A stretch of DNA of 64,000 nucleotides from positions 992,001 to 1,056,000 of the forward strand of contig NZ_AP020335.1 of assembly GCF_013340845.1 (NCBI RefSeq), written 5' to 3'. The stretch comes from Hydrogenovibrio marinus (GTDB lineage Bacteria; Pseudomonadota; Gammaproteobacteria; Thiomicrospirales; Thiomicrospiraceae). Every line of letters starts with the position of its first letter. Within the stretch, counting starts at the first letter, position 1. A model generated the notes under the pieces. The model ran no database searches. It saw nothing but the letters and a program-made list of their open reading frames with translations, and was not told where the DNA came from. Below, piece after piece: positions 2,026 to 14,024 of this stretch. Both the position numbers and the translations under genes were made by a program.

Positions 2026-3255
2026 TTAAACACTGTGTTTAAGCGGAATAATATTAGACTCGCTTTTTAGTGCGCCCAGATAATCTGCCCATGCTTGCAT
2101 CATTTTCATTCGTTCTGGCATAAGCTCAGCTTTGTTATAGGTTGCCCTGATTCGATCCTGAGAGGCGTGTGCTAGCTGTAATTCGATGGCGTCCGCACTA
2201 AACCCCATTTCGTTTAAAAATGTGCTGGTTGTGTGTCTAAAGCCGTGTGATGTCATAATGCCTCTGCCAATAGGTTTTCCTGTATTTGGGTTTGTTATGC
2301 GAATAACGGCCTGATTTAGTGTGTTTTCGCTCATTGGTTTGCCCGTTCTTTGGCCGCAAGCTGAGAGAAAAACGAACTCATTGTTTGAAGTAAGTTGCTT
2401 CATGTCTTTAAGAATGGTTAATGCCTGTTCAGATAGTGGTACTTTATGTGGTCTGTCCATTTTCATTTCATCGGCTGGAATGGTGATTAGCTTCTCTTTA
2501 AAGTCGATATACTCCCAACGCAAAAAACGAATGTTGTACGGTCTTAGCATTGATAATGAGGCAAACTGTAAAGCCTTTTTTACGGAATAGTCGCCGCTAT
2601 ACATATCAAGGCCTTTGAGAAAGTTGGCAAAATCTTTCGGGTCTGTAATATGGGCAAAGTTTTGAGACTTTTTCGGTTTTGGTAATAGATCGGCAATGGT
2701 GGCAGCTGGGTTGTTACTTATTAACTGTAAACTAAGTAAATAATTAAAGGTTTGTCGGCAATAGGTTGCAAGGTCTTTAGCTGTTTCTCGCTTATTGGCA
2801 TCTGCAATAGGTTTGAGTAGGTTCAATAAATCGACGGCTGTTATTTCTGTGACAGGTTTTTGATCTAAGTGGGTGAATAAATGGCGTTCCATTTTTGCCA
2901 ATTTCTTTTTTGCAGTAGTAGGGCGTAATTCCTGGGTGTTAAGCATTTCTAATGCGTAAAAGCTGAAGGGCTTAATTTTTAAATCTCTTTGTTGTTCTGC
3001 TTCTCTTGGGTCGATTTTTTTGGCAATTAAGGCTCGTGCATTGTCATGTTTTTCTCTGGCATAAGCTAGAGATATCTCGGGATAAGTGCCAAAAGTTAAT
3101 GTAAAGCGCTTTCCTTTTAAGCTTGTATCAAAGCGAAAAGATTTACTGCCTGCCTTTGTGACATAAACATAAAGACCACCCCCATCAGTTACTTTATAAG
3201 CTTTGTCTTTCGGCTTTAGGTTTTTTACTTTGGCATCTGTTAATGCTCGTTTCAT
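2026..3255 (-). CDS. P4-type tyrosine integrase (DUF4102 arm-binding domain)
   Basis: Site-specific tyrosine recombinase that integrates and excises a genomic island, usually at the 3' end of a tRNA gene. The N-terminal arm-type DNA-binding domain has the family motif DGGGLYVYV (about 24-32) and FGTYPEISLAYAR. The catalytic residues are visible: R238 in MLRPYN, H337 and R340 in SHGFRH, H363 in LAHAS and the nucleophile Y373 in ATYNKA. At 409 residues it is of normal length and appears intact. It reads away from the proposed attachment site immediately upstream, the usual arrangement for this family. Confidence 0.93.
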   Translation of the reverse strand: MKRALTDAKVKNLKPKDKAYKVTDGGGLYVYVTKAGSKSFRFDTSLKGKRFTLTFGTYPEISLAYAREKHDNARALIAKKIDPREAEQQRDLKIKPFSFYALEMLNTQELRPTTAKKKLAKMERHLFTHLDQKPVTEITAVDLLNLLKPIADANKRETAKDLATYCRQTFNYLLSLQLISNNPAATIADLLPKPKKSQNFAHITDPKDFANFLKGLDMYSGDYSVKKALQFASLSMLRPYNIRFLRWEYIDFKEKLITIPADEMKMDRPHKVPLSEQALTILKDMKQLTSNNEFVFLSACGQRTGKPMSENTLNQAVIRITNPNTGKPIGRGIMTSHGFRHTTSTFLNEMGFSADAIELQLAHASQDRIRATYNKAELMPERMKMMQAWADYLGALKSESNIIPLKHSV

Positions 3256-3579: not shown

Positions 3580-4488
3580 GTGGATTTTAGCTCTTCAGAT
3601 TGTTATAGGTTTAAGACATTCATCGAAAACATGAACGATGCCATTGTTGTTGAGAACGAGAATGGTGAGATATCCCTAGCGAACCAAGCCTTTTGTGATT
3701 TGTTCAATATCACAGCATCACCCGAAGAGATTATTGGCGTTGATTGTGCGTATTCGGCACAGCAATCAAAGCATCTATTTAAAGACCCCGAACTCTTTAT
3801 TGAAAGAAAAAACGAAATATTGAGGAATAAAGAACCTGTCCGTCATGAATTGGTTGAAATGGTGGGGGACAAGTTTCTGGAAAGGGATTTTATTCCAATT
3901 TTTGAAGACGGTAAGTATGTGGGGTTGGTTTGGGTTTTTAAAGACCTGACAGCGCATTACATCATGGAGTCACAACTCATGATGTTGACGGACAAAATAC
4001 GAAAGCAAAGCCTGACAGACGCGTTAACGGGCATTGGTAATAGAAGGTACTTGGATAATGAACTACCTAAATACCATGATTATGCCAGACGTCACGACAC
4101 TCCCTTGTGTATAGCGATTATTGACATAGATTACTTTAAGTCCATCAATGATGAGTATGGTCACGAAATAGGAGATCAGGCGCTTGTCCATGTGGCAAAC
4201 TACTTAAAGACGTCTATTCGTTCATCTGACTTGATTGGCCGAATGGGAGGTGAGGAGTTCATGGTGATGATGCCGGAAACTTCCCTGGAAGACGCTGAGA
4301 AATGGGTAATGGATTTGCATGCATTGTACCGTTCGCCTTCTACGCTTAATAAAAGAATGACGTTTAGTGTTGGTATGTCGTGTGCCTTAGCGGATCAAGA
4401 CTATAAGGTGACATTGAATCGAGCAGATCAGGCGTTGTATCAAGCAAAAAGAGAAGGTCGAAACAGGGTTGTTGTTTCAGAGGCTTAG
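3580..4488 (+). CDS. PAS-GGDEF diguanylate cyclase
   Basis: A cytoplasmic enzyme predicted to make cyclic di-GMP from two GTP. Residues about 10-130 form a PAS domain (NMNDAIVVENENGEISLAN); the GGDEF domain follows from about 140. The active-site motif is GGEEF at 223-227 and the metal-binding DIDYFKSIND is present. An inhibitory I-site, RSSD at 214-217, stands exactly five residues before GGEEF, so feedback control by product is likely. There is no membrane segment. The GTG start is chosen for the AAAAGGAG ribosome-binding site six bases upstream. A strong hairpin terminator follows. Confidence 0.92.
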   Translation: MDFSSSDCYRFKTFIENMNDAIVVENENGEISLANQAFCDLFNITASPEEIIGVDCAYSAQQSKHLFKDPELFIERKNEILRNKEPVRHELVEMVGDKFLERDFIPIFEDGKYVGLVWVFKDLTAHYIMESQLMMLTDKIRKQSLTDALTGIGNRRYLDNELPKYHDYARRHDTPLCIAIIDIDYFKSINDEYGHEIGDQALVHVANYLKTSIRSSDLIGRMGGEEFMVMMPETSLEDAEKWVMDLHALYRSPSTLNKRMTFSVGMSCALADQDYKVTLNRADQALYQAKREGRNRVVVSEA

Positions 4489-4545: not shown

Positions 4546-4932
4546 TTATTTCACTAGCGCTTTGCACCAGTCTTCCATAAAGTCGGTAGCGACTTGCATG
4601 GGTGGTTCCATAAAGCTGACCATAAACGAATCGCCTAGATCAACCACAGCAATAGAGCGCGGACGTACTGCCAAAACTTCGGGGTTAGGGATTTTCATGC
4701 CGAAGCAGAAGATAATGTTTTTGGCGTCTTTGATGTCTCCACGGATGTCACCTTCAATGCTTTGTGTGTGGCTGTAGTGGTCGAAAATGGCGATCAGCAT
4801 CGCTTTTGGGTTGGCTTCGATTTCTGACCGCAGTTGTGCAATGATGTCGTCTACAGTAGCGAATTTCGATTCGGACTTGTTAAACTGAATCTTGTAGATT
4901 GGAAACTTTTCCTGGAAGAACTGCTGTTGCAT
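4546..4932 (-). CDS. conserved hypothetical protein (possibly DUF6858-like)
   Basis: A 128-residue soluble protein that I cannot assign a function. Visible features are a central IFDHYSHT stretch, a DAKNIIFCFGMKIPNPEVLAVRPRS core, and a C-terminal DFMEDWCKAL. The layout resembles a small uncharacterised family of sulfur-oxidising bacteria that I recall as DUF6858, but this is from memory. It has a perfect AGGAGG ribosome-binding site and a Fur-like palindrome about 50 bases upstream, suggesting iron-responsive control. Confidence 0.7.
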   Translation of the reverse strand: MQQQFFQEKFPIYKIQFNKSESKFATVDDIIAQLRSEIEANPKAMLIAIFDHYSHTQSIEGDIRGDIKDAKNIIFCFGMKIPNPEVLAVRPRSIAVVDLGDSFMVSFMEPPMQVATDFMEDWCKALVK

Positions 4933-4980
4933 GCTAGCCTCCTAATTGTTCGGGCTATGAAATAGGTTTAAATGAAGAAT

Positions 4981-4995
4981 TGATAATAATTATAA
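4981..4995. promoter_or_regulatory. putative Fur box
   Basis: TGATAATAATTATAA matches the 7-1-7 Fur consensus TGATAATNATTATCA at 13 of 14 defined positions. It lies 49 bases before the start of the minus-strand hypothetical gene and 77 bases before thpR on the plus strand. The region is AT-rich, so a chance match is possible. Confidence 0.45.
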
Positions 4996-5071
4996 ATATA
5001 ATTTATATCTAATAAATCTTATTAATGGAATCTCTAAAACAAAACTAATTGATGTTAATTTAAGTAAGTTT

Positions 5072-5626
5072 ATGCGCATTTTTATCGGTATTGAAGTTTG
5101 TGATGGTGAATTGAAAGATGCTATGTTGTCTTGGCAGCATAATGCGGATCCTTTTTTAGGGGAAAGATGGCGCATGACAAAACCATACAACTTTCATCTA
5201 ACGCTGCGATTTCTGGGGCAGGTTGAGGCTGCTCAGGTTGAGAGCATAATTGAAAATCTACCAGGTTGGGTATCTGACTGCAAAGCTCTGAGTGTGGGGA
5301 GTAAGAAGTTAAATCTTTTACCTAGTGATGATAAGGTGAGGGTGGTGACATTGGCGTTTGAAAACTCTCAGGCATTGCAAGACATGGCGGATAGAGTCAA
5401 TGCTGGACTGATGAGGTTAGGGTTTGATGCGCCAGATTTACCCTTTTTACCGCATATCACGCTTGCTCGTCATAAGGGCAAGCCTTTGAAAGGGTTTGAT
5501 ATAACAGGGGTAGAGTGGCATCAAAATAACGAGGTTCATTTGGTAGTTGATTCAGTCTCGGTGTTTAGTAGTGAGTCGTCATCAAGTGGTGTTGTTTATC
5601 GTCCGTTGTTTAGTATCAATATTTAG
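5072..5626 (+). CDS. thpR: RNA 2',3'-cyclic phosphodiesterase
   Basis: A 2H-phosphoesterase (LigT/ThpR family) that opens 2',3'-cyclic phosphate RNA ends; in vitro members also ligate tRNA halves. The two catalytic HxTx motifs are visible: HLTLRFLGQ near residue 44 and PHITLARHK near residue 128. At 184 residues it has normal family length. It has no clear ribosome-binding site, the upstream sequence being AT-rich. Oddly, bases 5253-5270 within the gene are an exact copy of the dispersed 18-nt repeat, read as the in-frame peptide ENLPGWV between the two motifs. Confidence 0.9.
   Translation: MRIFIGIEVCDGELKDAMLSWQHNADPFLGERWRMTKPYNFHLTLRFLGQVEAAQVESIIENLPGWVSDCKALSVGSKKLNLLPSDDKVRVVTLAFENSQALQDMADRVNAGLMRLGFDAPDLPFLPHITLARHKGKPLKGFDITGVEWHQNNEVHLVVDSVSVFSSESSSSGVVYRPLFSINI
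5253..5270 (+). repeat. dispersed 18-nt repeat, copy inside thpR
   Basis: AAAATCTACCAGGTTGGG, identical to the intergenic copy near base 30015 and matching it for two further bases. It is translated in frame as part of ENLPGWV in thpR. Confidence 0.85.
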
Positions 5627-5744
5627 TGTTTTTACTAATTATATTTCGAAATTATTTCCTTGTTTTTCATCTGGTTACTTGTATTTTTTCATATAAAATG
5701 ACGCTTATTTTTCTTTTTATGGGCGTAAAAATATCGCTTCATTC

Positions 5745-5763
5745 ATGAACCAATTTGGTTCAT
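5745..5763. promoter_or_regulatory. perfect 8-bp palindrome upstream of the ANTAR regulator gene
   Basis: ATGAACCA-ATT-TGGTTCAT is a perfect inverted repeat in the 260-base AT-rich gap after thpR, about 125 bases before the ANTAR gene. It could be an operator or an RNA hairpin. It lacks the paired hexaloop stems expected of an ANTAR target RNA, so I assign no partner. Confidence 0.4.
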
Positions 5764-5886
5764 TCCTGTTTTATTTGCAACACCTACTTTCTCATAAAAA
5801 ATATTAAGTCCTTGATTAATTTCTATAAATAGTATTTGGAATGTTAATTGTTACCAGTAGGCGACATTTAGTTCGGAGGTGCAAAG

Positions 5887-6486
5887 ATGCGTTCAAAGTT
5901 TGATGTATTGATTGTCTCGGATGGCGATGACGTTAGCGAGCTTGAGGCAGGACTGGTTTCAATTGGTGCAGATCAAGTAAAAGTATTGCCAATAGAGCAA
6001 AACATTTTGAAAGCGCTAAATGAAATGCCGGTCGATTTGATGGTATTGGATGTTAAAAAACCAACTGCGAAACTCTTTGAACAGTTTAGCTTGGTAAATG
6101 AATATTGTCCAAAGCCGGTTATTTGCTTTAGTGAAGAGCGTGATAGCAAAGTTATCGAGCAATCAGTAAAAGCTGGTGTGGCCGCTTATATAGTGGAAGG
6201 AAAGGATGTTTCCAGATTGAAACCGATTGTCGAAGTGGCAATGCTGCGTTTCAATGCATGCCAAGCGGTGAAGAAAGAATTGTTGCAGGTTAAGGATAAG
6301 CTGTCACAAAGAGCAATTATTGAGAAAGCCAAAGGTCTGTTGATAGAACATAAAAATATGTCGGAAGATCAGGCCTATAAGACTATGCGAAAAATGGCGA
6401 TGGATCAGGGGAAGAAAATTTCAACGATTGCGCATGAAATATGCGACGTTGTTGCGGCATTAGAAAACACGATGACAAGTGTTTAA
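5887..6486 (+). CDS. ANTAR-domain response regulator (NasT-like)
   Basis: A 199-residue two-domain protein. The N-terminal half is a receiver-like domain, with the expected phosphoacceptor region at LMVLDVKKPT (about 52-61). The C-terminal part is an ANTAR RNA-binding domain (AIIEKAKGLLIEHKNMSEDQ to the C-terminus, about 142-195). ANTAR proteins stop premature termination by stabilising a two-hairpin RNA; NasT does this for nitrate assimilation genes under control of the sensor NasS. No NasS or nitrate gene is in the window, so the target is unknown. The ribosome-binding site CGGAGG is strong, and a clear terminator follows. Confidence 0.85.
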   Translation: MRSKFDVLIVSDGDDVSELEAGLVSIGADQVKVLPIEQNILKALNEMPVDLMVLDVKKPTAKLFEQFSLVNEYCPKPVICFSEERDSKVIEQSVKAGVAAYIVEGKDVSRLKPIVEVAMLRFNACQAVKKELLQVKDKLSQRAIIEKAKGLLIEHKNMSEDQAYKTMRKMAMDQGKKISTIAHEICDVVAALENTMTSV

Positions 6487-6518
6487 ACAAGCAGTTACCA
6501 GCTTGATTTGATACGGAA

Positions 6519-6546
6519 GGCGCATTTCATCTGAAATGCGTTTTTG
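6519..6546 (+). terminator. rho-independent terminator after the ANTAR gene
   Basis: The stem CGCATTTCA/TGAAATGCG with a TC loop is followed by T5, a typical intrinsic terminator 35 bases after the stop codon. Confidence 0.9.
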
Positions 6547-6620
6547 TCTCTAAATAAAATAATAATGGGCGCGGAATTCCGTTGGTTTGTTTGGTCGTTA
6601 AGTAGACAGGTTTATAAATT

Positions 6621-7871
6621 ATGGAAAATTTAAATAGGTTGGATATGGATCAAATAGACCCGTCGGAACTGTCGACGTTAAACACCCTGGAAAACAAGCT
6701 GTATTCAGTTTTTCAACCGATATATAGTTTTTCTAATCAGGCTTGCGTTGGTGCGGAAGCCTTGGTAAGAGGGCGTTCGTTGGAAAATGGCTTTCAGGTA
6801 CCTGTCTATAATTGCTTGGAAGTGCCGGAGGGCTTAACACAAGCCGAATTCAGCCACCAATTGAATCGTATGCATTTTGAAAACTGGGCAAAATTGAAGC
6901 GCCCGGATAATTGGATGTTTTTAAATCTGGATTTTGAAGGTGTGACCTCTTTGGGTGACTTGTACATTTCCGAATTTCTCAAAGATCTCAAGATGCAAGG
7001 CCATGAAGTGGTTATTGAGGTTGTTGAAAGCGAGATCAAAGACGAAGGGTTGTTTGATAAAGTCATTAACACACTTAGAGATTTGGGGTGTTTGATTGCC
7101 TTGGATGACTTTGGTGCCGGACATTCGAATGTGGATCGTATCTGGAAGGCGCAACCAGATATCGTTAAGCTGGATCGAGGAGTGCTGCTTGAAGCAACTA
7201 AGAGCTTAAGAAGCCAAAGTGTGCTACGTAATCTGACCAATCTTATTAAGCAAGCAGGCAGTATCTGCCTGCTGGAAGGTGTCGAAAATAGAGAGCAAGC
7301 GCTGTTGGCGATGGACATTGGCGTTGATTTGGTTCAAGGTTTTTATTTTGCACGCCCTCGCCAGTTGTTGGATCGCATCAAGCAAGGTGAGTCTTGCATT
7401 AAGGAAGTGACTGAGCAATACCCGGCTTATATTGAAGAAAAAGCATTCTTAAAACAAATTCAGAGGAAAGGATACGAAACTTTATTTGAAAGTTTCCTGG
7501 GCATGCCGAACTTGGCGGAACTTGAACTACAGATGGAAAAATTGCTGACGTTATCTTTTGTGAAAAGGTTTTTTATCTTGGATCAAGAAGGTTATCAGGT
7601 CAGCGATGAGTACAATGTCGAAGACAAAGTCAAACAAGTTAGTGTGTTGAAGAAAGGTAAAGGTCTGTGCTGGAAGAATCGCCGTTATTTCGTCAAGGCG
7701 ATACAGTCTCCGGGAAGGTTGTATGTTTCGGAGCCTTACCGGTCATTGATAGATATGCAGCTATGTCTAACGGTTTCAAAAGTGGTGTATATCAATGAAA
7801 ACCCCTTTGTCGCATGCTTTGATGTCAGCTATGTCGACAAATCTACAGAGAGCGTTCAGATATCGGTTTAA
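6621..7871 (+). CDS. EAL-domain c-di-GMP phosphodiesterase with C-terminal sensor-like domain
   Basis: A soluble protein predicted to hydrolyse cyclic di-GMP. The EAL domain covers about residues 25-265 and keeps the catalytic set: E46-A47-L48 in AEALVRG, the Asn in FLNLDF, the Glu in IEVVESE, LDDFGAGHSN, the Lys in DIVKLDR, LLEGVE and QGFYFARP. The C-terminal 140 residues form a separate domain with the series FILDQEGYQVS, NRRYFVKA, SEPYRS and ACFDVSYVD. The same series of motifs is seen in the next gene, so the two proteins probably sense the same type of signal. No membrane segment is visible. Confidence 0.88.
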   Translation: MENLNRLDMDQIDPSELSTLNTLENKLYSVFQPIYSFSNQACVGAEALVRGRSLENGFQVPVYNCLEVPEGLTQAEFSHQLNRMHFENWAKLKRPDNWMFLNLDFEGVTSLGDLYISEFLKDLKMQGHEVVIEVVESEIKDEGLFDKVINTLRDLGCLIALDDFGAGHSNVDRIWKAQPDIVKLDRGVLLEATKSLRSQSVLRNLTNLIKQAGSICLLEGVENREQALLAMDIGVDLVQGFYFARPRQLLDRIKQGESCIKEVTEQYPAYIEEKAFLKQIQRKGYETLFESFLGMPNLAELELQMEKLLTLSFVKRFFILDQEGYQVSDEYNVEDKVKQVSVLKKGKGLCWKNRRYFVKAIQSPGRLYVSEPYRSLIDMQLCLTVSKVVYINENPFVACFDVSYVDKSTESVQISV

Positions 7872-7873
7872 CC

Positions 7874-7906
7874 TATCTTTTGTGTGGGCTTTAAGGCAAA
7901 GATAGA
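7874..7906. terminator. hairpin after the EAL gene, possible terminator
   Basis: CTATCTTT and AAAGATAG form a stem just after the stop codon, with a one-base bulge. There is no T-run after it, so intrinsic termination is uncertain; it may instead protect the mRNA end. Confidence 0.35.
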
Positions 7907-7920
7907 TATGCACCAAAATC

Positions 7921-7958
7921 GAACAAATGCCTTGTCATAATTGCTAGGTTTTGTTCGC
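7921..7958. promoter_or_regulatory. inverted repeat in the promoter region of the glucosylglycerate operon
   Basis: CGAACAAA and TTTGTTCG form an 8-bp inverted repeat with arms 22 bases apart, about 90 bases before the first gene of the operon. This could be an operator for a dimeric regulator. No regulator can be named from the sequence. Confidence 0.35.
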
Positions 7959-8043
7959 TAAATTTCATAATAAATTGCTGATATATAACATAAATTTAAG
8001 AACAGGTCTCCTTCTCGCTTTGATAGGGTAAAAGGGGAGATTT

Positions 8044-8904
8044 ATGCAGGAATTTATTAATCTTTATCAAGACCACCGGGTTGAAATCGAAAAGTTTCTG
8101 ATCGAAACCATTCGAAACAACGGGCAATGCCTGCAGCCTCATGTCGTCGGGATGAAAGGTTTCTTCTCCATTCTACCAAGCCTTGAACTGGTGTATATCA
8201 CCGACAAGTCGTTTGTCCAAATTTCACCGAATGTCTTCAAGAACAAGACCAACAAGTCCGCGGTGGGCAAAAACCGGGATTACTTGGTTTCTAAAGTTAA
8301 ATCTCGTGATGAATTGGTTTCCATTAGTGAACCCTATATCAGTTCTGCAACAGGTGAGTCGTGCGTGACTGTCATGATTGCGGACGGCGATTACTATTAC
8401 TTTTTCGACTTTAATCTACCGACCTTGTTGACCCGCTTTGGGTTGGTGGAGCGCCACCAATTGTTTAACTTGGTCACTAAGAGCTTCTATTTGGTGATAG
8501 GTCTGTCGTTGATGTTCTTTTCAATTATGTCGATAGGCTATGCCTTCTATGATTATGTGATTCAGTTGAATCACCTCGAACAATATAGCCTAGAGAGTAT
8601 TTTCAAACCGATCATTTCTCTGACGATGGGCTTGGCGATTTTCGATTTGGCGAAAACCCTATTGGAAAGGGAAGTATTCTTTAAGGCATATTCTGACAAA
8701 AAAGACGACGCTCGTTTGCTGGCAAAGTTTTTGACGGCAATCATTATTGCCTTGTCGATAGAGGCGTTGATGGTGGTCTTTAAGGTGGCACTGAACGATC
8801 CGGCTCAAATGCTGTACGCCCTGTATTTGATTGTTGGGATTGCATTGATTATTTTGTCACTGGCCTTTTATAACAAGTTTGTCATTAAGAAGCCGGAAAA
8901 TTAA
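8044..8904 (+). CDS. membrane protein with cytoplasmic Cache/PDC-like sensor domain and four TM segments
   Basis: A 286-residue protein with no recognisable output domain. Residues about 1-135 form a soluble sensor-like domain with the series VYITDKSFVQISP, KNRDYLVSK, SEPYISS and FFDFN, matching the C-terminal domain of the EAL protein upstream. Four hydrophobic segments follow, at about 150-175, 190-210, 230-250 and 255-275. There is no signal peptide or transmembrane helix before the domain. It starts an evenly spaced operon (gaps near 45 bases) with the glucosylglycerate genes, so it may sense or regulate osmotic or metabolic state; this role is inferred. Confidence 0.8.
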   Translation: MQEFINLYQDHRVEIEKFLIETIRNNGQCLQPHVVGMKGFFSILPSLELVYITDKSFVQISPNVFKNKTNKSAVGKNRDYLVSKVKSRDELVSISEPYISSATGESCVTVMIADGDYYYFFDFNLPTLLTRFGLVERHQLFNLVTKSFYLVIGLSLMFFSIMSIGYAFYDYVIQLNHLEQYSLESIFKPIISLTMGLAIFDLAKTLLEREVFFKAYSDKKDDARLLAKFLTAIIIALSIEALMVVFKVALNDPAQMLYALYLIVGIALIILSLAFYNKFVIKKPEN

Positions 8905-8949
8905 AGCTTCAAGTGAAGCACTTCCCGCTTTGATTAGGAATTGGCGTTT

Positions 8950-9717
8950 ATGAGTCAAATGGTTATTTTCACCGATTTGGATGGAACTCTACTGAATCAT
9001 CATAACTATGATTATCAGGGGATTTGTCCACTTCTGGTTAAGCTAAAGGAGATGAGGATTCCGGTGATCTTGAATTCAAGCAAGACATTGGATGAACTGG
9101 CCCGTTGGCAAGAACTGCTGAAGCTTGATCCGCCTGTTATTGCAGAAAATGGTGGCGTGGTGCTATTGCCCTCCCATGAAGGGCCTAAAAAAATATTGAT
9201 TGGCAGGCCCTATAGCGAAATCCGCTCTTATTTGAAGCACTTGAGGAAGTCACATCATTGGGATTTTGAAGGTTTTGGCGACTGGACGGTGGCAGAAGTG
9301 ATGAACAAAACCGGTTTGAAGGTCAAAGAGGCTGCATTGGCAAAAGAGCGTGAAGTAACCGAACCGATTATTTGGAAGGATTCACCAGAGGCTTTAGAGC
9401 AGTTTGAAATCGAGTTGGAAAAAGAAGATTTGATCCTGAAGAAAGGTGGACGTTTTTACCATGTGATGGGCAAGCATGACAAAGCCGATGCCATGCAACT
9501 CTTGGTGAATAAGGAATATTTCAGTTGTGGCAGTCTATGCAAAATTATTGCATTGGGTGACAGTGATAATGATTTGGCGATGTTGAATTATGCCGATACC
9601 GCGGTGGTTTTGCCGGCGGCTTCGGGTGAAAAACTGGAGGTGGCAGGTGCGATTTATGTTGAAGATCATGCGCCACTAGGTTGGGTGAAAGCTGTTGAGT
9701 CGATTGTAGGGTTATAA
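8950..9717 (+). CDS. glucosyl-/mannosyl-3-phosphoglycerate phosphatase (HAD family)
   Basis: A HAD-superfamily phosphatase of the MpgP/GpgP type, predicted to remove phosphate from glucosyl-3-phosphoglycerate and release the compatible solute glucosylglycerate. The nucleophile motif DLDGTLL lies at residues 9-15, a middle cap domain follows, and GDSDNDLAML near the C-terminus supplies the metal-binding aspartates. ATG is chosen rather than the TTG nine bases upstream, because the AGGA ribosome-binding site would lie only two bases before the TTG. The sugar specificity is read from the neighbouring synthase gene. Confidence 0.88.
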   Translation: MSQMVIFTDLDGTLLNHHNYDYQGICPLLVKLKEMRIPVILNSSKTLDELARWQELLKLDPPVIAENGGVVLLPSHEGPKKILIGRPYSEIRSYLKHLRKSHHWDFEGFGDWTVAEVMNKTGLKVKEAALAKEREVTEPIIWKDSPEALEQFEIELEKEDLILKKGGRFYHVMGKHDKADAMQLLVNKEYFSCGSLCKIIALGDSDNDLAMLNYADTAVVLPAASGEKLEVAGAIYVEDHAPLGWVKAVESIVGL

Positions 9718-9760
9718 ATGGCGAAGTAGTTAAAGTGAAAAAGCATAGGAGCTTTGAGTT

Positions 9761-10969
9761 ATGGGTGATTTTTTTCAAAACGGAACAGTAACGACATTTC
9801 ATAATCTAACGGATAGGCCGGTTGAAGAGTTGGAAAGAGAGCTTCTCAATTTCAGTCAATCCAAACCACTCGGTATTATCCTGCCATCCTTATTCAGCGA
9901 GCTTGAAGGGCCTGCGCTGAAACACATCGTGAGCGAATTGAAAAAAGTGCCATATCTCAGTCAGATTGTTATCGGTCTGGACAAAGCCAATGCTGAGCAG
10001 TTTGCTTTTGCCAAGGAATATTTCGCTGAATTGGGGAATGTCAAAATTGTCTGGAATGATGGTCCTCGTATGCAAGCCATGACTGCCAAGCTGAAAGAAC
10101 AAGACCTAGCACCATTGGAACGAGGGAAGGGCAGTAATGTCTGGAACTGCTATGGCTACGTTTTGGCGTCAGATCAAGTGGAGGCGGTCGCCCTGCATGA
10201 TTGCGATGTACTGACCTATGACAGAAGCTTGTTGGCACGTTTGATTTACCCTGTGGCTCACCCGACATTTAACTTTGTTTTCTCAAAGGGTTATTACCCA
10301 AGATATGCAGATGGCAAACTTAACGGTCGGGCTTCGCGTTTGTTGGTGACGCCGCTGTTACGTGCCTTGAAAGGTGTCGTGGGAGATGATGCCTTATTGG
10401 ATTATCTGGACAGCTTCCGTTACCCGTTGGCAGGTGAGTTTGCGATGGATGTTCATTGTTTGAAAGAAATTCGCATTCCATACGACTGGGGCTTGGAAAT
10501 CGGGGTGATGTCGGAGGTCTTGAGAAACTATTCAAATCGCCGTATTTGCCAAGTGGACATTGCAGATGTTTACGATCATAAACATCAGAATGTTTCATTT
10601 GAAGACAAAACGGCTGGGTTGTCTCGAATGAGTCAGGATATTGCCAAATCGCTATTCAGAAAACTGGCCGTGAGAGGACATGAGTTTTCTCGCAGTACCT
10701 TGAGAACGATTCGCGCCAAGTATTACCGAACGGCATTGGATCAGCTTGAATCCTATGCATTCGATGCGGAGATGAACGGTTTAAGGTTGGATTTGCACTC
10801 GGAAGAGAAGGTGATTGAATTGTTCGCGAAAAACATCATGGATGCCGGCGTCGGTTTTATCGACAACCCGGGAGAAATGCCGTTTATGCCGAACTGGAAT
10901 CGTGTTGTCAGTGCTTGCCCGACCATTCTCGAAGAGATCAAATTGGCTGTAGAGTTGGATAACGCCTAA
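9761..10969 (+). CDS. gpgS: glucosyl-3-phosphoglycerate synthase (GT81-like)
   Basis: A GT-A fold glycosyltransferase that joins glucose from an NDP-glucose to 3-phosphoglycerate, the first step of glucosylglycerate synthesis. The metal-binding DxD motif appears as ALHDCDVLTYD (about 147-157), followed by FNFVFSKGYYPR and the acceptor-site stretch FRYPLAGEFAMD. The 402-residue length matches the longer GpgS enzymes of bacteria such as Persephonella rather than the shorter mycobacterial type. A good GGAG site precedes the start. It lies directly between the phosphatase and the phosphorylase gene. Confidence 0.87.
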   Translation: MGDFFQNGTVTTFHNLTDRPVEELERELLNFSQSKPLGIILPSLFSELEGPALKHIVSELKKVPYLSQIVIGLDKANAEQFAFAKEYFAELGNVKIVWNDGPRMQAMTAKLKEQDLAPLERGKGSNVWNCYGYVLASDQVEAVALHDCDVLTYDRSLLARLIYPVAHPTFNFVFSKGYYPRYADGKLNGRASRLLVTPLLRALKGVVGDDALLDYLDSFRYPLAGEFAMDVHCLKEIRIPYDWGLEIGVMSEVLRNYSNRRICQVDIADVYDHKHQNVSFEDKTAGLSRMSQDIAKSLFRKLAVRGHEFSRSTLRTIRAKYYRTALDQLESYAFDAEMNGLRLDLHSEEKVIELFAKNIMDAGVGFIDNPGEMPFMPNWNRVVSACPTILEEIKLAVELDNA

Positions 10970-11013
10970 TTGGATTAAATAGACTAAATGTATAGAAACG
11001 CACCGGAGAAAGT

Positions 11014-12780
11014 ATGAGTAATGAAACGCTTCGTCAGATAGAAACCAAACTGCAATCACTCTATCCTGAAAAAGAGGCGGCTTATGCTTACCAACGTATC
11101 GTCGAAATGATAGAAGCCTTTCCTAAGTCAAACTTCGAAGGAGAGCGTTGGAGTCAGGAAGATGCGTTGTTGATCACCTATGGCGATACGTTCCTACAAG
11201 AAGATTTGGCACCACTGGAAACTTTGAAGAAGTTTTTACAGACGCATATCAAAGATGCCATCAATACTGTTCACATCCTGCCGTTTTTTCCTTACAGCTC
11301 GGATGATGGTTTTTCGGTTATCGACTATAAAATGGTCGATCCTGATTTGGGCGATTGGGAACATGTCGAAGGCTTGAAAGAAGCTTATGATTTGATGTTC
11401 GATTTTGTTGTGAATCACGTCTCTCGTGAAAGCTTATGGTTTACCGACTATAAGGCGGACAGGGAGCCCTACAATCGCTTCTTTATTGAAATGGAAGGTA
11501 AAGAGGATGTGTCTCAAGTAACGCGTCCAAGAAACTCTCCGCTACTGGTTCCAGCCTATACACACCGTGGACGCAAGATGGTTTGGGCGACTTTCAGCTC
11601 CGATCAAATTGACTTGAACTTTAAAGAAGTGGAAGTCTTGATCAAGATGGTCGAAGTGCTCTTGATGTATCTGGAAAAAGGGGCGCGTCTGATTCGTTTG
11701 GATGCCATTGCTTTCCTGTGGAAAGAGTTGGGAAGTAACTGTATTCACTTGCCGCAAACCCATACTGCCGTGAAATTGTTTAGAGACATTATGTCCGTGG
11801 CGCGCCCTGAAGCTATTATGCTGACAGAGACCAATGTGCCGCATCAGGAAAACCTGTCGTATTTCGGTAACCAGGATGAAGCCCACATGGTGTACCAATT
11901 TGCTTTGGCGCCATTGGTGTTGCATGCGCTGCACCGTGGTGACGGGCAGTATCTGACGCAATGGGCGAGTGAGTTGGGTGAACCGCCGGAAGGTTGTACT
12001 TTCTTAAACTTTACCGCTTCACATGATGGAATTGGCGTGCGCCCAATTGAAGGTATTTTGCCAAAACGTGAAGTGGATGATCTGATTACCGGTATGCACC
12101 GTTTGGGTGGATTCGTATCCATGAAAAGTAACCCTGATGGTACGGAAAGCCCTTATGAAATCAATATCGCTTTGTTCAGTGCTTTCCGCGAAACGCATAT
12201 GTCCAATGGACCGGATCAATGGCAGGTGGATCGTTTTATTTGTTCCCAGAATATTATGATGACCTTACAGGGAATTCCCGCATTTTATGTTCATAGCTTG
12301 GTGGCGACACCCAATGACTTGGATGGGGTTGAGAAAACAGGGCGAACGCGTTCCATCAACCGTCGTAAGTGGGACTATGAATACCTTCAAGCATTGATCG
12401 AAAGTGGTAGAACTTCTAATGCTGAGGTCATTAAGCGTCTGACGAATATTCTGCAAAGACGTAAAAAACATAAAGCATTCCATCCAGATACACCGCAGCA
12501 GATTGTTGATTTGGGAAGTGATTTCTTTGCGTTATGGAGAGATGGGGAGGGGTTAGTTTTCCCGTTGTTGGCAATTCACAACCTGACGAATGACATCAAA
12601 ATATTGAACTTATCTGAGATAGCGGGCATAGAGCGACACAATTACTGGGTGAACCTATTGGATAATCAAGGGGTTAGTAGTCAAGAAGAGAAGTACGTGA
12701 TTCAGCCGTATCAATCTATTTGGTTGATGCCGGAATCCGTTGATAGTGTTTCTGCTCTGTGGGCGCCGTTTACACCTTAA
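11014..12780 (+). CDS. GH13 sugar phosphorylase, probably glucosylglycerate phosphorylase
   Basis: A GH13 subfamily 18-type enzyme (sucrose phosphorylase family), 588 residues, using a double displacement with phosphate to give glucose 1-phosphate. Visible motifs are ILPFFPYSSDDGFSVIDY, the nucleophile in LIRLDAIAFLWKE, the acid/base Glu in LTETNVPHQEN and the transition-state Asp in TASHDGIGVRP. Sucrose phosphorylases and glucosylglycerate phosphorylases (such as E. coli YcjM) cannot be told apart with certainty by eye; the operon with GpgS and the phosphatase favours glucosylglycerate turnover. Its presence suggests the solute is both made and recycled. Confidence 0.85.
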   Translation: MSNETLRQIETKLQSLYPEKEAAYAYQRIVEMIEAFPKSNFEGERWSQEDALLITYGDTFLQEDLAPLETLKKFLQTHIKDAINTVHILPFFPYSSDDGFSVIDYKMVDPDLGDWEHVEGLKEAYDLMFDFVVNHVSRESLWFTDYKADREPYNRFFIEMEGKEDVSQVTRPRNSPLLVPAYTHRGRKMVWATFSSDQIDLNFKEVEVLIKMVEVLLMYLEKGARLIRLDAIAFLWKELGSNCIHLPQTHTAVKLFRDIMSVARPEAIMLTETNVPHQENLSYFGNQDEAHMVYQFALAPLVLHALHRGDGQYLTQWASELGEPPEGCTFLNFTASHDGIGVRPIEGILPKREVDDLITGMHRLGGFVSMKSNPDGTESPYEINIALFSAFRETHMSNGPDQWQVDRFICSQNIMMTLQGIPAFYVHSLVATPNDLDGVEKTGRTRSINRRKWDYEYLQALIESGRTSNAEVIKRLTNILQRRKKHKAFHPDTPQQIVDLGSDFFALWRDGEGLVFPLLAIHNLTNDIKILNLSEIAGIERHNYWVNLLDNQGVSSQEEKYVIQPYQSIWLMPESVDSVSALWAPFTP

Positions 12781-12958
12781 TCAGCTTTGCACCGCTTTAA
12801 TACACGAATGCATAACCATGAAGCAAATATTACAAAATTATTGAGGGAAAATGATTGAAAAAAGTATAAATTTAATTTAAGTTGTTGAATTTAAATGTTT
12901 ATTTAGTTTTAGGCATGTCGATTGTTATATGATAAGTGTTAAGTTAGAGTGCCTTGCT

Positions 12959-12997
12959 CGCACAAAGCGAATGATTGTTTTGTGCGGGATTTTTTTA
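12959..12997 (+). terminator. hairpin with T-run downstream of the phosphorylase operon
   Basis: CGCACAAA and TTTGTGCG form an 8-bp stem with a 12-base loop, followed by GGA and T7. It lies 180 bases after the phosphorylase stop codon and may end that operon or a small RNA made from this gap. Confidence 0.6.
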
Positions 12998-13034
12998 ACT
13001 TAATCAAGAGTTTATCTGTTGCATCTTTTTGAAT

Positions 13035-13094
13035 TTATGCGAGGTTCATCTGGATGTTTAATATGCAACGATAGTATCTGATTTTTTTAGTCAT
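13035..13094 (-). CDS. possible 19-residue small ORF with perfect ribosome-binding site
   Basis: The ORF MTKKIRYYRCILNIQMNLA is preceded by GGAGGTGATAATG, a near-ideal Shine-Dalgarno at five-base spacing. Directly upstream on the same strand lies the stem of the 13111-13146 hairpin. No downstream minus-strand gene is near enough to be led by it. The good start site is the only evidence, so it is likely chance or an uncharacterised small peptide. Confidence 0.2.
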   Translation of the reverse strand: MTKKIRYYRCILNIQMNLA

Positions 13095-13110
13095 TATCAC
13101 CTCCATTGAG

Positions 13111-13146
13111 CCATTCATAATACCCTCATTATGAGTGGTTTTTTTT
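13111..13146 (+). terminator. rho-independent terminator in the intergenic gap
   Basis: CCATTCATAAT and ATTATGAGTGG form an 11-bp stem with one T-G pair and a six-base loop, followed by T8. No plus-strand gene lies between it and the hairpin ending at 12997, so it either backs up that terminator or ends a short RNA. Confidence 0.75.
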
Positions 13147-13301
13147 ACGCCCGTTTTTAGCTTCCAGAGTCTTTTCTGCTTATAAATCGCCGATTTACGT
13201 TGGTAATGAGTGCTAACAGATAGACAAAACTTGCACATCTCAGTAAAATGCCTGCCCAATTAACCCCTAATAATTTTTTATTCGAAAGAGAGTGATATCA
13301 G

Positions 13302-14024
13302 ATGGGAAGAGCCTATCAAAACCGTAAGGATTCCATGGCAAAGACCTCCAATATGAAAGCGAAGGTCTACTCAAAGTTCAGTAAAGAAATTTACGTTAGC
13401 GCCAAAAATGGCGGGACAGATCCGACGGCTAATTTGTCATTGTCCCATTTGATTGAAAAAGCCAAACAAAACCAAGTGCCTGCACACGTTATTGATAAAG
13501 CGCTGGAAAAGGCTTCTGGTGCAGGTGGTGAAGATTTCGTAACGGTTCGTTTCGAAGGGTTCGGTCCAGGCGGCTGTATGATGATTGTTGACTGTCTAAC
13601 CGACAACAACAACCGTACGTTTGGCGAAGTCAGGGGGGTATTCAACAAAATTAAAGCGAAGTTGGGTACGCAGGGCACAACCGCACATATGTTTGACCAC
13701 CGTGCAGTGTTCGAGTTCAAGCATGACGATGAAGACGCGGTATTGGAAGCTTTGATGGAAGCGGATGTTGATGTGTCGGATGTTGAGTCGGAAGAAGGTT
13801 TGGTTCGCGTATTGACCCCACCAACAGAATACTTCAAGGCAAGAACGGCATTGATGGACACTTTCCCGGGTGTGGCGTTTGAAACCGATGAAATCACTTT
13901 TATTCCTCAAACCTACACTTTGCTGCAAGGCGAAGAGTTAGAAACTTTTGAGAAGTTTATGGATTTGTTGAACGACCTTGATGATGTTCAGGAAATCTAT
14001 CACAACGTTGAAGTAGAAGATTAA
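13302..14024 (+). CDS. YebC/TACO1-family protein, YeeN-type
   Basis: A 240-residue YebC/PmpR-family protein. The family is described both as DNA-binding regulators and, more recently, as ribosome-associated factors relieving stalling. The N-terminus [15 protein letters not shown] and [16 protein letters not shown] are of the YeeN branch rather than the classical YebC branch, which usually begins MAGHSKW. The core GFGPGG and DNNNRT motifs are present. Classical yebC often sits just before ruvC, but the ruvC gene in this window has nadA there instead. A large repeat-derived hairpin follows it. Confidence 0.85.

Follow-up and report, generated by a model that had tools for sequence, protein, structure and literature searches.

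An EAL protein and an adjacent four-helix membrane protein of Hydrogenovibrio marinus share a YkuI-like Cache domain

The closest described counterpart of the two genes analysed here is YkuI of Bacillus subtilis (PDB 2bas, 2w27), in which an EAL domain is followed by an intracellular Cache domain. The genes lie next to each other on the forward strand of a 64,000-nucleotide stretch of Hydrogenovibrio marinus (the window; bases 992001-1056000 of contig NZ_AP020335.1, a single-contig 2.49 Mb genome). The first encodes a protein of 416 residues with an EAL domain and a C-terminal Cache domain (EAL-Cache; 6621..7871), and the second a membrane protein of 286 residues with an N-terminal Cache domain and four transmembrane (TM) helices (Cache-4TM; 8044..8904). 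EAL-Cache has the domain order of YkuI, which is the best structural neighbour of the Cache domain of Cache-4TM as well. Unlike Cache-4TM, YkuI has no membrane part, and the sequences of the window score under the Pfam cut-off for YkuI_C. According to PMC4822843, YkuI_C is one of two principally intracellular Cache families, whereas dCache_1 and sCache domains are principally extracellular and located between two TM helices. The domains of the window are assigned the same Cache fold as the dCache_1 and sCache domains of chemoreceptors and kinases, but that of Cache-4TM is predicted to be cytoplasmic and is followed by a C-terminal four-helix region.

Two further systems bear on the neighbouring genes. 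NasS-NasT, a nitrate-responsive antitermination system, is described in PMC3795266 as a pair dissociated by nitrate or nitrite. A NasT-like ANTAR gene also adjoins the Cache genes in the window and in several nitrate clusters; however, no NasS gene is beside the ANTAR gene of the window, and no NasS-like protein was found in some of the nitrate clusters. PMC11009771 presents glucosylglycerate as a nitrogen-free anionic compatible solute that is formed when cells starve for nitrogen and substitutes for glutamate under nitrogen limitation, and reports that sucrose-phosphorylase-like GH13 genes tend to lie near the glucosylglycerate (gpg) genes; presumed genes for the synthase, phosphatase and phosphorylase types known there are also found 3' of the pair in the window. 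Judged by titles and abstract openings, no published description of an EAL-Cache/Cache-4TM pair was recognised, and no literature joining Hydrogenovibrio with glucosylglycerate was found, both being weak evidence of absence. To our knowledge, no sensor genes of either type have been described beside glucosylglycerate genes, and no signal has been reported for YkuI-type EAL proteins.

A preliminary description of this DNA had proposed that the C-terminal part of the EAL protein and the N-terminal part of the membrane protein are one sensor-type domain, and the sequences bear this out. Both reading frames are located at the positions it gave, and its five motif pairs occur in the same order in both proteins (EAL tail/membrane protein: FILDQEGYQVS/YITDKSFVQIS, KNRRYFV/KNRDYLV, SEPYRS/SEPYIS, CLTV/CVTV and FDVS/FDFN). 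BLASTP aligned the two proteins with an E value of 1e-4 over 43 residues. Comparison of family profiles by hhalign, as that description had suggested, gave a P value of 1.5e-6 with 29 and 15 sequences, and 6.6e-9 with 26 and 22 sequences, the latter at a probability of 95.8% over 103 aligned columns. With the smaller profiles, two negative controls, namely the 4TM part against the EAL tail and the Cache part against the EAL domain, gave no match.

A profile built from the tails of the EAL proteins only (A3) was searched against 369 Gammaproteobacteria genomes and yielded 44 matches in 39 genomes. The 41 classified matches (40 read frame by frame plus the window, with three left unread) comprise 15 EAL-Cache proteins, 19 Cache-4TM proteins, four soluble MCP-Cache proteins (one called by Pfam, the others by similarity), two Cache domains with one helix (called by eye) and one fragment. 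The dCache_1 domain is common in such genomes (77 matches in 94 genomes; E ≤ 1e-10), and by our own comparison of the lists only four of its 77 matches coincide with those of A3, all four being Cache-4TM. As the EAL-tail profile draws both EAL-Cache and Cache-4TM proteins and few dCache_1 proteins, the two domains of the window belong to one YkuI-like Cache subgroup, assigned by sequence profiles on the EAL side and also by fold on the membrane side. Distant Cache-4TM members come near or above the dCache_1 cut-off of 45, at 44.5 bits and 48.1 bits (the latter in G082; G and L numbers denote our genomes and loci). Neither protein reaches the Pfam cut-off of the YkuI_C family itself (26 bits): the full EAL protein scores 14.2 bits and its tail alone 16.3 bits, and the membrane protein is unmatched. 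Soluble chemoreceptors in which the MCP domain precedes a C-terminal YkuI_C-like Cache domain were found at L244 (8297-9421), L245, L229 and L235; the first passes the Pfam YkuI_C cut-off at 26.3 bits, the others being called by similarity. These MCP-Cache proteins represent a third output for the YkuI_C-like sensor.

Structural similarity search supported the assignment of the membrane protein. Its model (36 sequences, pLDDT 80.4) matched only four chains among solved structures at E values under 0.001, all of them YkuI (Foldseek; best E value 5.5e-6). Residues 6-135 superimpose on YkuI (PDB 2w27) with a Z score of 13.3 and a root-mean-square deviation (RMSD) of 2.9 over 126 residues, the next protein having a Z score of 10.6. 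In the low-confidence model of the EAL protein (6 sequences, pLDDT 54.8), the tail (residues 274-414) resembles the sensor domain of sporulation kinase D, with a Z score of 11.7 and an RMSD of 3.7 over 127 residues. Over the whole EAL model YkuI is the first Foldseek match, but its superposition (Z score 10.8) spans both domains with an RMSD of 16.1 and so says little about the tail. Unrelated folds, which would have spoken against a common domain, were thus not seen: both resemble the PDC/Cache type, and that of the membrane protein is specifically YkuI-like.

Residues 6-135 of the membrane protein (8059..8448, forward strand) form its Cache domain, and a four-helix membrane region follows at residues 139-281 (8458..8886, forward strand), containing the highly conserved segments GLAIFDLAKTLLEREV and AIIIALSIEALMVVFK. 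Family searches found no known output domain, in keeping with the preliminary description, and the model shows four long helices after residue 139; searches of Pfam, NCBIfam and PDB sequences returned nothing passing a cut-off. The model has no long membrane-spanning helix ahead of the Cache domain; a hydropathy scan picks out residues 34-52 too, and these fall inside that domain in the model. Lysine and arginine counts in the loops (1 + 0 outside, 6 + 3 inside) favour an inside N-terminus, with the middle loop and the C-terminus on the same side. Given the lack of a preceding TM helix and these loop charges, a cytoplasmic position is predicted for the sensor. In alignments the four-helix part is the best-conserved stretch of the protein, and it also stands alone in paralogues of about 140-200 residues; such stand-alone proteins, 24-32% identical to the membrane half, were seen at L106 (5314-5802), L107 and L109-L113. 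Cache-4TM relatives are encoded by at least 455 of 500 candidate stretches in a collection of named genomes. Going by record titles, the best 80 come from 14 Thiomicrospira-type genomes and otherwise mostly from Campylobacterota, and the closest named relative among the matches listed is that of Hydrogenovibrio sp. JE_KL2 (98%).

The EAL protein is predicted to be soluble, with the EAL domain at residues 24-246 (Pfam EAL, 129.6 bits) and the YkuI_C-like Cache domain at residues ~268-414 (7422..7862, forward strand), delimited by profiles and the model. Residues E46, N102, E133, E136, D162, D163, K183, E219, E222 and Q239, which we take to be the catalytic residues of EAL domains, are invariant in 22 EAL sequences, so that the protein is likely an active phosphodiesterase of cyclic di-GMP (c-di-GMP). 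In T. arctica (L070, 5622-6876) two overlapping frames take the place of a single EAL frame, reflecting either decay or a sequencing error.

A FastTree tree of 90 Cache domains, rooted at the midpoint, separates them according to output. All 36 EAL-type domains form one clade, and all 48 4TM-type domains another, which also contains the six MCP or one-helix domains (supports 0.85 and 0.89). Because the tree splits by output type, local duplication as the source of the pair is ruled out. Both domains may bind one ligand, as the preliminary description had suggested and as the neighbourhoods that they share would allow. A third copy of the sensor was sought in a chemoreceptor of 860-880 residues that adjoins the EAL gene in some relatives, and was not found; the one tested carries PAS domains and an MCP domain.

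The pair is not unique to the window. Among 62 genomes of the family, the EAL orthologue occurs in 16, Cache-4TM in 34 (including four distant ones of ~30% identity and one split across two contigs) and both in 14; Cache-4TM accompanies the EAL orthologue in 14/16 genomes compared to 20/46 without it (p 0.003, phylogeny ignored), so that the two genes co-occur within the family as the preliminary description had proposed to check. In 11 of these 14 genomes, which include several close relatives, the two form a cluster: directly adjacent in seven (G000, G005, G007, G009, G012, G014, G023), separated by a PAS chemoreceptor in three (G022, G046, G047), and in reversed order in one (G021), its EAL gene being broken into two frames. 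In G029 and G031 the two genes are widely separated, and in G036 they are on different contigs. Of the 16 genomes with an EAL orthologue, 13 have an ANTAR gene directly 5' of it. The chemoreceptor of 860-880 residues follows the EAL gene directly in seven of these 16 (L066, 8135-10726, L067, L068, L070, L074, L077 and L078) and is absent from the cluster of the window; PAS and MCP domains were established for L066, the others being alike by eye.

We propose, with about even confidence, that the two YkuI_C-like Cache sensors belong to a nitrogen-supply circuit, feeding a c-di-GMP output and a membrane output and joined in this clade to the glucosylglycerate genes. That the sensors may report nitrogen supply is suggested by relatives of both that adjoin nitrate-uptake genes. 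Both Cache domains would bind a nitrogen signal of the cytoplasm (nitrate, nitrite or some other); the sensor of the EAL protein would then control the phosphodiesterase, lowering c-di-GMP, and the membrane protein would pass the signal to, or act in, the membrane. The ANTAR protein might control read-through into the operon, and the downstream genes would make and recycle glucosylglycerate, replacing glutamate when nitrogen is short. As a PAS chemoreceptor lies between or beside the two genes in some relatives, outputs to c-di-GMP, chemotaxis and the membrane are combined there in a single cluster. The proposal offers a candidate ligand, nitrate or another nitrogen signal, for YkuI-type EAL proteins and for the large and functionally blank Cache-4TM family, which is common in Campylobacterota and in sulfur-oxidising gammaproteobacteria; if true, it would link, in chemolithoautotrophs, nitrogen status and c-di-GMP with the synthesis of a nitrogen-free compatible solute.

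Across other families and phyla, it is genes of nitrate uptake and assimilation, not osmolyte genes, that recur as neighbours, and this association is partial. In the collection of named genomes, 80 loci were fetched, of which 79 were readable (one map lacked the gene), and genes were named by eye from clusters. The nrtC gene is directly 5' of Cache-4TM in 8/79 loci, an nrtA- or nrtB-type gene lies within four genes of it in 12/79, and amt or glnB (by eye) in 6/79. TIGR01184 confirmed nrtC over its cut-off in L070/L121, L132, L133, L142 and L145, and nrtB was over cut-off in L132. The NrtC cluster label also covers other ABC ATPases (for example beside c28 in L180, L181 and L185, and in L079 and L068), and was counted only beside NrtA or NrtB. 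The label "NasA" for a cluster of molybdopterin enzymes in Campylobacterota (L146, L154, L158) was unverified and was not used. Overall, Cache-4TM adjoins nrt, nas or nir genes in some Campylobacterota and in several gammaproteobacterial families.

Likewise, in the class sample Cache-4TM lies within nitrate clusters in 6 of 24 readable genomes; these counts leave out seven of 40 loci where calling of open reading frames missed the Cache gene and which were classified by frame only, plus G265, and the gene was also missed in L258, L270 and L271. Three loci of one genus (L232, L236, L266) have the set Cache-4TM, ANTAR, NrtA, NrtB, NrtC and a porin-like gene, and L265 has Cache-4TM, a porin-like gene, NrtC, NrtB, NrtA and two ANTAR genes. 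L269 combines ANTAR, a NarK-type transporter (311.3 bits, just under the cut-off of 311.7), Cache-4TM and a nitrate-reductase-like enzyme, besides a frame of 966 residues that matched no family and was not assigned to NirB. In L239, Cache-4TM is accompanied by NirB, a frame of 111 residues and a nitrate-reductase-like enzyme. One further genome of the 24 (L231) has Cache-4TM beside amt-glnB.

EAL-Cache proteins show similar placements. One of ~32% identity is flanked by NrtC and NarK (L254), and another directly follows nrtC (L077). The cluster of T. arctica (L070/L121) holds two ANTAR genes, a NasS-like gene, NrtABC, Cache-4TM, the EAL gene and a chemoreceptor. Within the family, nitrate-transporter genes lie within four genes of EAL-Cache in G021, G061 and G054 (L070, L077, L104). 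At L104 (5246-8119) we observed that the distant EAL-Cache gene (29% identity) is divergent from an ANTAR-type gene of 396 residues preceding nrtABC. Moreover, both sensors co-occur with TIGR01184 across the 369 genomes: 20/29 genomes with Cache-4TM have it compared to 70/340 without (p 1.4e-7), and 9/16 with EAL-Cache compared to 81/353 (p 0.005). The set of 29 omits G115, where only the 4TM part matches, and keeps G198 (partial) and G265 (in-frame stops), and the list of 16 takes in G321, whose frame is unread. In the family, a nitrate transporter is present in 26/34 genomes with Cache-4TM and in 11/28 without (p 0.004).

Several observations weigh against a nitrogen signal for the pair. Most Cache-4TM genes lie apart from recognised nitrogen genes: 61/79 named loci have no nrt or amt/glnB gene within four genes, and 17/24 class-sample genomes, the window included, have no recognised nitrogen gene next to Cache-4TM. 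Within the family, only 2/34 genomes (G021, G034) have a nitrate transporter that close to Cache-4TM (four genes or fewer), and the co-occurrence of the EAL orthologue with the transporter reaches only p 0.07 (13/16 compared to 24/46); outside it, L254 is the only EAL-Cache protein in a nitrate cluster. All these p values come from Fisher tests that ignore phylogeny. The nas cluster of the window genome (L264) is ~630 kb away and has neither Cache gene, and G006 and G008 lack a nitrate ABC transporter yet have ANTAR, Cache-4TM and gpg genes. The ligands of Cache pockets are highly diverse. In addition, the EAL model is of low confidence (pLDDT 54.8).

A real possibility, though one we would not bet on, is that the two proteins have only the Cache subgroup in common and perceive different signals, their closeness on the chromosome being due to operon shuffling. 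The clean separation of 36 EAL-type from 48 4TM-type domains in the tree agrees with this, as do the genomes where the genes lie far apart or on separate contigs (G029, G031; G036). By contrast, the EAL-tail profile draws Cache-4TM proteins and not the many dCache_1 receptors, and 11 of the 14 family genomes carrying the two genes keep them in a cluster.

It seems unlikely that the sensors serve the osmolyte pathway itself, responding to salt, glycerate or glucosylglycerate, with the nitrate neighbourhoods being incidental. The preliminary description had connected the pair with osmolyte genes, and this connection stands in that Cache-4TM lies directly 5' of gpg genes in 12/62 family genomes, two of which (G006, G008) lack nrtC; nitrate neighbourhoods are fewer within the family (2) than gpg neighbourhoods (12). 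It does not extend further: GpgS occurs in 40/62 family genomes and Cache-4TM is beside gpg genes in only 12 of them, so the connection is confined to a single clade that includes several close relatives. Moreover, no Campylobacterota map has a gpg gene within four genes of Cache-4TM, and the nitrate neighbourhoods recur in unrelated families. We also doubt that the membrane protein, instead of relaying a signal, is itself a small channel or transporter in which the Cache domain controls the flux of a sensed ion such as nitrate or nitrite, since no transporter family match passes its cut-off, although the four-helix part is the best-conserved stretch, occurs alone as paralogues and in 8/79 loci comes right after nrtC.

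Within the nitrogen-supply proposal, a more far-reaching and rather improbable version is that YkuI-type Cache proteins inside the cell constitute a so far unrecognised class of nitrate or nitrogen sensors that replace NasS. They would hold or release NasT-like ANTAR antiterminators, and by exchanging EAL, 4TM and MCP modules would link one nitrogen signal to antitermination, c-di-GMP, chemotaxis and the membrane. This version is suggested by nitrate clusters that have an ANTAR and a Cache gene, in genomes where a NasS search gave no second NMT1_2-type protein, together with the same ANTAR-Cache gene order in the window. Such clusters were found in G336, G082 and G229 (one genus), G386, G220 and G232. 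A search for NasS-like proteins found one NMT1_2-type protein in each of the first five, which is NrtA by its place in the cluster (that of G082 carries a weak TAT-signal match), and none in G232. G186, where glgC lies between ANTAR and Cache-4TM and nrtC is on another contig, was excluded from the argument, and G087, with EAL-Cache as well as Cache-4TM and with several NMT1_2-type matches, was not counted. An ANTAR protein acting alone would also explain the clusters without NasS. In the window genome, no NasS gene lies beside the ANTAR gene of the window cluster; the NasS-like gene (G000:C1:1639091) belongs to the distant nas cluster (L264), which contains a nitrate-reductase-like enzyme, NirB, NrtABC, a PP2C-kinase, the NasS-like protein and ANTAR. 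The PP2C phosphatase-Ser/Thr kinase fusion there (L264, 13169-14896) has sub-equivalog scores, and its relatives adjoin Cache-4TM or EAL-Cache genes at some loci.

The ANTAR gene of the window (5887..6486, forward strand) encodes an RNA-binding regulator of the NasT/AmiR type (Pfam ANTAR, 65.4 bits, cut-off 27.3) with a weak receiver domain (Response_reg, 21.7 bits, under the cut-off of 30.2). The three genes 3' of Cache-4TM are on the same strand. The first (8950..9717) encodes a HAD protein of the mannosyl-3-phosphoglycerate phosphatase family (TIGR01486, 206.9 bits, cut-off 164.75), presumed to be the glucosyl-3-phosphoglycerate phosphatase; the second (9761..10969) the presumed glucosyl-3-phosphoglycerate synthase (NF040724, 335.5 bits, under the equivalog cut-off of 700); and the third (11014..12780) a sucrose-phosphorylase-like GH13 protein, presumed to be the glucosylglycerate phosphorylase (TIGR03852, 222.1 bits, under the cut-off of 334.4). 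Only the phosphatase thus passes a curated cut-off, the matches of the other two being strong but sub-equivalog. No Rfam element was found in 4900-13400 at E values up to 1, and promoter and terminator scans gave numbers similar to those of shuffled sequences (15 compared to a mean of 17.7, and 8 compared to a mean of 7.0). To the left of the cluster are a transposase-like frame (16-513) and a phage-type integrase-like frame (2026-3255), both recognised by eye. A PAS-GGDEF diguanylate cyclase is encoded at 3580-4488, about 2 kb 5' of the EAL gene, and among the stretches fetched its orthologue (85%) is present only in the two closest relatives (L061, L062).

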